Of a stretch of DNA of 64,000 nucleotides, positions 56,240-57,414 are shown piece after piece. Position 1 is the first letter of the stretch. Each line of letters opens with the position of its first letter. Source of the stretch: Arcobacter sp. EP1. GTDB taxonomy: Bacteria; Campylobacterota; Campylobacteria; Campylobacterales; Arcobacteraceae. The notes beneath the pieces were generated by a model. It was given only the letters and a program-made list of their open reading frames with translations. It did not search any database and had not been told where the DNA came from. Location: NCBI GenBank assembly GCA_001655195.1, contig LPNY01000132.1, forward strand, positions 130,344-194,343, written 5' to 3'. The position numbers were made by a program, and so were the translations under genes.

Positions 56240-56731
56240 ATGTTTGTTGGTGATAGTCTTCAAAGTGCAAATCAAATCTATGCAAAACTTAATCAAAACT
56301 ATGCCAAATTAGACTCACTTGAAAAAGATGATGTAGTCGAGAAATTCAATAAAGATGACTATAATCGTGTCACGTCAAATGAAAACTATGACGAAAAAGA
56401 TTATGAAAGAGTTCTTTCACGATATAAAGATAGTGATGCCCAAATTAGACAACATGAACAAGCACATGCGTCATCATTAACAGCTTCAACACCAGACTAT
56501 GACTATCAAGTAGGACCTGACGGTAAACTCTATGCTACAGGAGGAGAGGTTCGAATTGATACTTCTATTCCCGATGATGAAAAAGCAGCAGCCTTTAAAC
56601 TTTCTCAAATGCAAGATGCATCAAGTGCACCCAATGAATTAAGTGCAGCAGATGCTCAAATTAGTAGAACAGCAAACTTAAATAAACTACTAATTCAATC
56701 ACAGCAACAAGGAGAAGAAAATGCAAGTTAA
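56240..56731 (+). CDS. SprA-related putative metalloprotease
   Basis: A 163-residue protein with a possible zinc site HEQAH (His72, Glu73, His76) in IRQHEQAHASS, followed by YQVGPDGKLYATGGEVRID, the hallmark of the SprA-related family (also called CJM1_0395-type). There is no signal peptide. The N-terminal part is charged and helical, the C-terminal end Gln/Ala/Ser rich. Its last 11 bases overlap the start of the mini axial protein gene, so the two are co-translated. The function of the family is not known to me. Confidence 0.8.
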   Translation: MFVGDSLQSANQIYAKLNQNYAKLDSLEKDDVVEKFNKDDYNRVTSNENYDEKDYERVLSRYKDSDAQIRQHEQAHASSLTASTPDYDYQVGPDGKLYATGGEVRIDTSIPDDEKAAAFKLSQMQDASSAPNELSAADAQISRTANLNKLLIQSQQQGEENAS

Positions 56732-56981
56732 TAACAATACAACAGCTATAACCAATAATTTACATGGAATGCTTCAAGCTCAAACTCAAATGAATGATTT
56801 GGCACAAACAGTTGCCGATGTCTCAAATAGTGTAGGAGACCCACAAAACCAAGAGGTAACGCAAGACTTAGTTGATGCAATAACTCAACAAATTCCTACA
56901 CAAATAGCTTATGAAGCAAATGCCCAGTCAATAAAAGTAGAAAATGCAGTACAAGATGTACTGTTAAATATTAAGGCATAA
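56721..56981 (+). CDS. miniature flagellar axial (rod/hook)-like protein
   Basis: An 86-residue protein resembling the two terminal helices of flagellar rod and hook proteins joined without a middle. The N-terminal ITNNLHGMLQAQTQMNDLAQ has the pattern of the axial N-helix, although the usual ANxxTPGF is absent; the C-terminal PTQIAYEANAQSIKVENAVQ then DVLLNIKA closely follows the QRAYEANxKxI...LLNL ending of FlgC/FlgG-type proteins. It could be exported by the flagellar apparatus or cap an assembly. It lies between the metalloprotease and the thioredoxin. Confidence 0.65.
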   Translation: MQVNNNTTAITNNLHGMLQAQTQMNDLAQTVADVSNSVGDPQNQEVTQDLVDAITQQIPTQIAYEANAQSIKVENAVQDVLLNIKA

Positions 56982-56982
56982 A

Positions 56983-57414
56983 ATGGAAAAACTCAAAATA
57001 GTTTGTCCTCATTGCTCAAATATAAATTCTATTCCAAATAAAGAGTCTTATTCCAAGGCAAATTGTGGACACTGTAAAGCATCCCTTCTTCATACAACTC
57101 CTATAGACCTTAGAGAAGATGATTTTGACCATCATATTGTAAATTCTGATATTCCAGTTATTGTTGATTTTTGGGCACCTTGGTGTGGACCATGTAAAAT
57201 GATGGGACCAGTTTTTGAAAGAGTTGCTTCAAAGTATCCTTTAAAAGCACGTTTTGTTAAAGTCAATACTGAAAATGAACAAAATCTAGGGGCTTTATAT
57301 AATATTCGCTCGATTCCAACATTAGTAATTTATAAAAATGGTGTAGAAGTTCACCGAGTTGCAGGTGCAACTGATGAATCACAACTAACTTATCTACTCA
57401 ACAGTATCATTTAA
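56983..57414 (+). CDS. trxC: thioredoxin with N-terminal zinc ribbon (TrxC type)
   Basis: The 143-residue protein starts with two Cys pairs, CPHC (9-12) and CGHC (28-31), which form a zinc ribbon as in thioredoxin 2, followed by a thioredoxin fold with the active site WCGPC and cis-Pro in RSIPTLV. It reduces disulfides and is often redox- or OxyR-controlled in other bacteria. It starts one base after the mini axial protein stop; its end overlaps the converging DUF523 gene. Confidence 0.92.
   Translation: MEKLKIVCPHCSNINSIPNKESYSKANCGHCKASLLHTTPIDLREDDFDHHIVNSDIPVIVDFWAPWCGPCKMMGPVFERVASKYPLKARFVKVNTENEQNLGALYNIRSIPTLVIYKNGVEVHRVAGATDESQLTYLLNSII

Follow-up and report, generated by a model that had tools for sequence, protein, structure and literature searches.

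The SprA-related family (PF12118), for which a zincin fold was predicted in 2013 (PMC3650047), has been found in the flagellar secretome of Campylobacter jejuni. Its C. jejuni member CJM1_0395 no longer appears in the supernatant when flgG is mutated, as seen in two strains (PMC5223770). The CJM1_0395 mutant grows and swims normally, and thus the wider family is dispensable for flagellar assembly in C. jejuni, while adherence and invasion are somewhat lower (PMC5223770). Flagellinolysin, a proteolytic flagellin, is a flagellum-associated zinc metalloprotease in which the protease is inserted in the flagellin (PMC5595980). Among the axial proteins, the rod and hook proteins FlgB, FlgC, FlgF, FlgG and FlgE carry N- and C-terminal D0-helix signatures, and FliE is a small, all-helical protein.

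The locus described here lies in a window of 64,000 nucleotides (the whole stretch of DNA analysed) from Arcobacter sp. EP1 and comprises a short SprA-related gene (ORF1) overlapping the gene of a miniature axial-like protein (ORF2, the mini protein). Flagellinolysin is the nearest described concept to this pair, but here the genes are separate and overlapping, and a flagellin domain is present in neither ORF. ORF1 shares family and HExxH motif with CJM1_0395 and other PF12118 proteins, yet it is shorter (163 versus ~200-230 aa) and its gene is coupled to that of a mini axial protein. The mini family shares both D0-helix signatures with rod and hook proteins; unlike these, ORF2 has 86 aa, a size similar to that of FliE, lacks D1/D2 domains and is encoded outside flagellar clusters. 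According to the first-pass annotation, the pair is not known to have a described function. This stands for the coupled pair and for D0-only mini proteins, no description of which was found in the openly licensed literature, but not for the protease half, which is not new because flagellum-dependent release of an SprA-related protein is already known from C. jejuni (PMC5223770). The features of the locus are as follows.

56240..56731, plus strand: putative SprA-related zinc metalloprotease ORF1, 163 aa, short Arcobacteraceae subfamily (PF12118 match, E=1.8e-17)
56453..56467, plus strand: HExxH motif HEQAH, ORF1 residues 72-76 (conserved across family alignments)
56651..56653, plus strand: codon of ORF1 Asp138, candidate third zinc ligand (59/59 invariance)
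56710..56714, plus strand: Shine-Dalgarno-like AGGAG for the mini gene, within the ORF1 3' end (from the sequence)
56721..56731, plus strand: 11-bp ORF1/ORF2 overlap (phase kept in 26/26 pairs)
56721..56981, plus strand: mini axial-like protein ORF2, 86 aa, D0 helices only (profile A2 against PDB sequences, Flg_bbr_C matches, low-confidence helix-loop-helix model)
56865..56969, plus strand: ORF2 residues 49-83, C-terminal D0-helix region resembling the rod/hook C-terminus (PF06429, E=9.6e-4, 19.1 bits, cut-off 23)
56983..57414, plus strand: TrxC-type thioredoxin, trxC-like (NF008229 TrxC, 8.8e-45)

Both ORFs and their overlap lie where the first-pass annotation had placed them. Judged by conservation they are real genes, since ORF1 scores 64.1 bits against PF12118 (curated cut-off 27.3) and ORF2 recurs in 21 other genomes at 39-62% full-length identity. 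The trxC-like gene, which begins right past the mini stop codon and also lies 3' of mini genes that have no adjacent protease (e.g. L017, L019), is probably co-transcribed with the pair; it is not judged part of the system. Next come a gene of DUF523 type, which Pfam lists as 2-thiouracil desulfurase, and a TtcA-like gene on the opposite strand. In the host genome (3.0 Mb, completeness 100) a wide distance separates the pair, on contig C142, from the flagellar cluster on C24. Inspection by eye and with a simple pattern gave no evident sigma-28 or sigma-54 type promoter at the pair; Arcobacter is reported to be without sigma-28 and sigma-54 regulators (PMC9321776).

Its profile score and its HEQAH motif place ORF1 among the SprA-related putative zincins, as had been proposed. 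In an alignment of 14 short-form relatives ~40 columns are invariant, and H72, E73, H76 and D138 are kept in 14/14 sequences. Across the wider family, drawn from several phyla, E73, H76 and D138 are found in 59/59 sequences and H72 in 58/59. The GEV motif, part of the Pfam description of PF12118, is present in the window protease as GGEV. Its glutamate, Glu103, occupies a position that varies across the wider family (E, S, H, N or R), with S, H or N in place of E in 12/14 short-form sequences. Because D138 is invariant and E103 is not conserved, Asp138 is the better candidate for the third zinc ligand, and Glu103 is unlikely to fill this role. The AlphaFold2 model of ORF1 has a mean pLDDT of 84.9, with ~93-98 in the catalytic part. 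A Foldseek search of this model against the PDB returned no significant match, a result that carries no weight either way. Weak structural alignments of residues 51-159 that span the HExxH helix include those with RseP and FtsH (Z 3.8-5.7), both of which are HExxH membrane proteases. The host encodes a second, longer SprA-related paralogue (C76:36852-37358; L084:6796-7416) that is uncoupled to any mini gene.

ORF2 had been read as a protein that looks like no more than the D0 helices of a rod or hook protein, and the profile search bears this out. Profile A2, built from 22 ORF2 relatives, gave nine matches up to E=10 against PDB sequences, all of them to FlgE, FlgC or FlgG (best 2.1e-4); nine axial flagellar proteins out of nine rule out an artefact of helical composition. 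Taken alone, ORF2 reaches 19.1 bits against Flg_bbr_C (PF06429), under the cut-off of 23. Matches to this domain at E<=1 occur in 12/22 relatives, and the coupled mini protein of one genome (G010) clears the cut-off (33.5 bits, 3e-8). Since ORF2 has no match to the N-terminal domain Flg_bb_rod (PF00460), it is termed axial-like here and not filed as a rod protein; the mini relatives L112 and L117 clear Flg_bb_rod with 22.3 and 22.9 bits, respectively (cut-off 20.7). No match of ORF2 to FliE was found in a Pfam-type profile search. The ORF2 model is a helix-loop-helix of low confidence (pLDDT 60). Together, these comparisons indicate a likeness of ORF2 to the two terminal D0 helices that pair in rod and hook proteins, without a D1/D2 domain. 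Over genome contigs, the single protein gave 0 matches and the alignment 28 loci.

The axial proteins of the host seem complete without ORF2, which comes on top of them. A PF06429 search of the host genome finds eight places, ORF2 being the eighth; the other seven look like FlgG, FlgE, FlgC, FlgF, FlgK, FlgB and an FlgE-like protein, names assigned on size, position and family alone. A true FliE is encoded elsewhere (C24:94548-94805). ORF2 as a stand-in for a missing axial protein is ruled out by FliE and these seven other Flg_bbr_C matches.

Miniature axial proteins extend well beyond the window's family. Run against 298 class genomes, the mini profile retrieves FlgE- and FlgG-sized axial proteins and, in other families, many small stand-alone proteins. 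With the wider profile, mini proteins are found in at least 76 class genomes, at least 58 of them beyond the window's family. Twenty stand-alone relatives were retrieved (L106-L125; e.g. L112:3124-3408, L124:3435-3740), with lengths of 66-101 aa. Many combine an N-terminal rod signature (e.g. NNNAQNVANVNTD) with the D0 C-terminus EANAxxIKTxDEMLGSLLDIKA and have little between; the ANNxANxNT rod motif is kept in mini relatives, and L112 clears the Pfam cut-offs at both ends (Flg_bb_rod and Flg_bbr_C). In the stretches read, the stand-alone minis lie outside flagellar clusters. No mini was present among the matches listed for the f10 genera with SprA-related genes (g44, g45, g48) and the f13 genus g47. 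As the mini protein often occurs by itself across Campylobacterota, its presence does not hinge on the protease.

The flagellar connection suggested by the first-pass annotation is evident in gene content. FlhA is present in all 106 PF12118-positive (P ~4e-8) and all 76 mini-positive class genomes (P ~1e-5), both P values ignoring kinship, and 36/298 class genomes are FlhA-negative. Six FlhA-negative genomes belong to the window's family, and neither protease nor mini occurs in any of them. By this distribution, protease and mini are confined to genomes with a flagellar export gate. Conversely, the SprA-related gene is missing in 156/262 flagellated class members. In two Verrucomicrobia contigs (L048:685-2927; L050:50-3077) an SprA-related gene lies 3' of fliD, and in L050 it also converges on a flagellin gene. 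In a C. jejuni reporter screen, the N-terminus of Cj0416 drives flagellar secretion (PMC2764114); this protein was considered as a possible C. jejuni counterpart of mini and left out of the evidence.

The two genes are adjacent in 15/37 Arcobacteraceae-type genomes, named relatives with the pair being Arcobacter, Halarcobacter, Poseidonibacter, Malaciobacter and Aliarcobacter, so that co-occurrence, on which the proposed pairing hinged, was found. All 26 adjacent pairs, a few of which are one genome entered through two collections, overlap in one relative phase (by 11, 14, 17, 20, 23 or 32 bp), and 25/26 have a Shine-Dalgarno-like motif at the corresponding place. As all share the phase and 25 the motif, the overlap is not due to chance; it is as expected for the translational coupling that had been postulated, in many Arcobacteraceae. 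In most of the 15 genomes the pair occupies a common locus or a similar setting, and in G010 it is found at an unrelated locus beside panC with the overlap retained. Some genomes have mini without protease (G001, G013, G015, G030), others protease without mini (G020, G027, G029), and one has both genes apart (G033). In the congeneric G014 and G031, an intact mini gene stands beside a gutted protease gene of 83 and 73 codons, respectively. The gutted genes are as follows.

L015:1740-1991, minus strand: gutted protease gene, HExxH and hairpin lost
L023:1255-1476, plus strand: gutted protease gene, HExxH and hairpin lost

Both gutted genes retain the N-terminal part and a C-terminal 'LNKA(L/F)LE' stretch; these retained ends may have a function of their own. 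The QIP motif of mini is retained in genomes in which the protease is missing or gutted. The occurrence of each gene alone and the intact minis beside gutted proteases argue against a strict dependence between the two proteins. At the loci examined outside the family, no mini was found adjacent to the longer SprA-related genes, which rules out the pair as universal in Campylobacterota. Even unlinked, the genes tend to co-occur by genus outside the family, with mini in 10/13 SprA genera versus 6/26 others (P=0.002; counting by genus corrects only partially for relatedness).

The pair is rather probably a small flagellar accessory operon. Both products would be exported via the flagellum, mini ending up in or on its axial structure while the protease would act outside. 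Coupled translation would supply the two proteins together, and the type III export channel of the flagellum would be their way out of the cell. Since the D0 helices, the builders of the inner tube, are kept and the surface domains absent, mini may take up sites within the axial lattice, in the rod, the hook or the hook-filament junction, or dock on the end of the lattice. The protease, released or retained at the flagellum, would cleave protein outside the cytoplasm. The least certain step, an escorting or anchoring of the protease by mini, is a guess with clearly less than an even chance of being right. Points against the accessory reading are the distance from the flagellar cluster, the lack of an evident sigma-28 or sigma-54 type promoter, the Flg_bbr_C score of ORF2 under the cut-off, the normal swimming of the CJM1_0395 mutant, the occurrence of each gene without the other and the gutted protease genes. 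The genes might also be mere operon neighbours whose products are exported by the flagellum independently of each other and are partners neither physically nor enzymatically; their joint translation in Arcobacteraceae would then be fortuitous. The lack of adjacency outside the family and the persistence of each gene without the other agree with this, and chance new neighbours are plausible because Arcobacter flagellar genes are extensively shuffled (PMC9321776). However, the single phase of 26/26 overlaps, the retention of the pair at a second locus and the tendency of genera with one gene to have the other even unlinked (P=0.002) speak for more than neighbourhood, and this explanation appears rather unlikely.

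Other roles for the two proteins are less probable still. Mini could stay unexported and, as a mimic of axial subunits at the export gate, serve as a chaperone or regulator, for which its small, chaperone-like size and predicted helical structure of D0 helices only would be suitable; yet both terminal D0 signatures of exported axial proteins are kept, as is the ANNxANxNT motif in relatives, making an intracellular role improbable. Overlapping genes are what would be expected if a coupled supply were needed because mini is a substrate, a pro-peptide-like partner or an inhibitor of the protease, with release or activation upon export. That mini, QIP motif included, survives where the protease is missing or gutted renders such a relationship quite improbable. 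A protease that clears the way for the growing flagellum or trims cap or hook proteins during assembly, much as the FlgJ muramidase domain does its part, and with mini as a rod adaptor, would fit the restriction to flagellated genomes and the fliD neighbourhood in Verrucomicrobia; the FlgJ of C. jejuni is without a muramidase domain (PMC2764114). It is the least probable of these roles, as loss of the wider-family member in C. jejuni leaves motility normal (PMC5223770) and more than half of the flagellated class members (156/262) manage without an SprA-related gene.

With an accessory operon as the favoured reading, a broader and decidedly speculative idea, which we consider unlikely as a whole, is that a class of D0-only axial subunits provides mounting points on the flagella of Campylobacterota. 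The Arcobacteraceae subunit, coupled to an exported zinc protease, would position this protease on the flagellum in a modular arrangement, as an alternative to the protease-bearing flagellin. Axial flagellar proteins are usually taken as a closed list, and a D0-only class, if it is one, would be a new component to be sought in existing cryo-ET maps. Several Campylobacter and Helicobacter genera in the sample apparently lack mini, so that flagellar parts lists compiled with probes from C. jejuni (PMC9321776) have probably missed it. Coupled as it is to a putative HExxH protease that may be exported, mini offers a testable case of an enzyme-carrying or enzyme-releasing flagellum, and the pair bears on the role of SprA-related proteins.

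Some minor observations concern the surroundings of relatives. In L117 (1909-3687), a mini gene lies 14 bp 3' of cheD-cheB and so seems to belong to a chemotaxis operon. In L115 (3345-3828), the mini gene is followed by one for a protein of 68 aa with weak similarity to YjfB_motility (PF14070, E=0.0065), a putative motility protein. In two class genomes, uncharacterised proteins of 180-191 aa are encoded convergently with a long SprA-related gene (L056:1980-2522, minus strand; L081:812-1387, plus strand); they have no Pfam match, and their N-termini are like those of flagellar export substrates.
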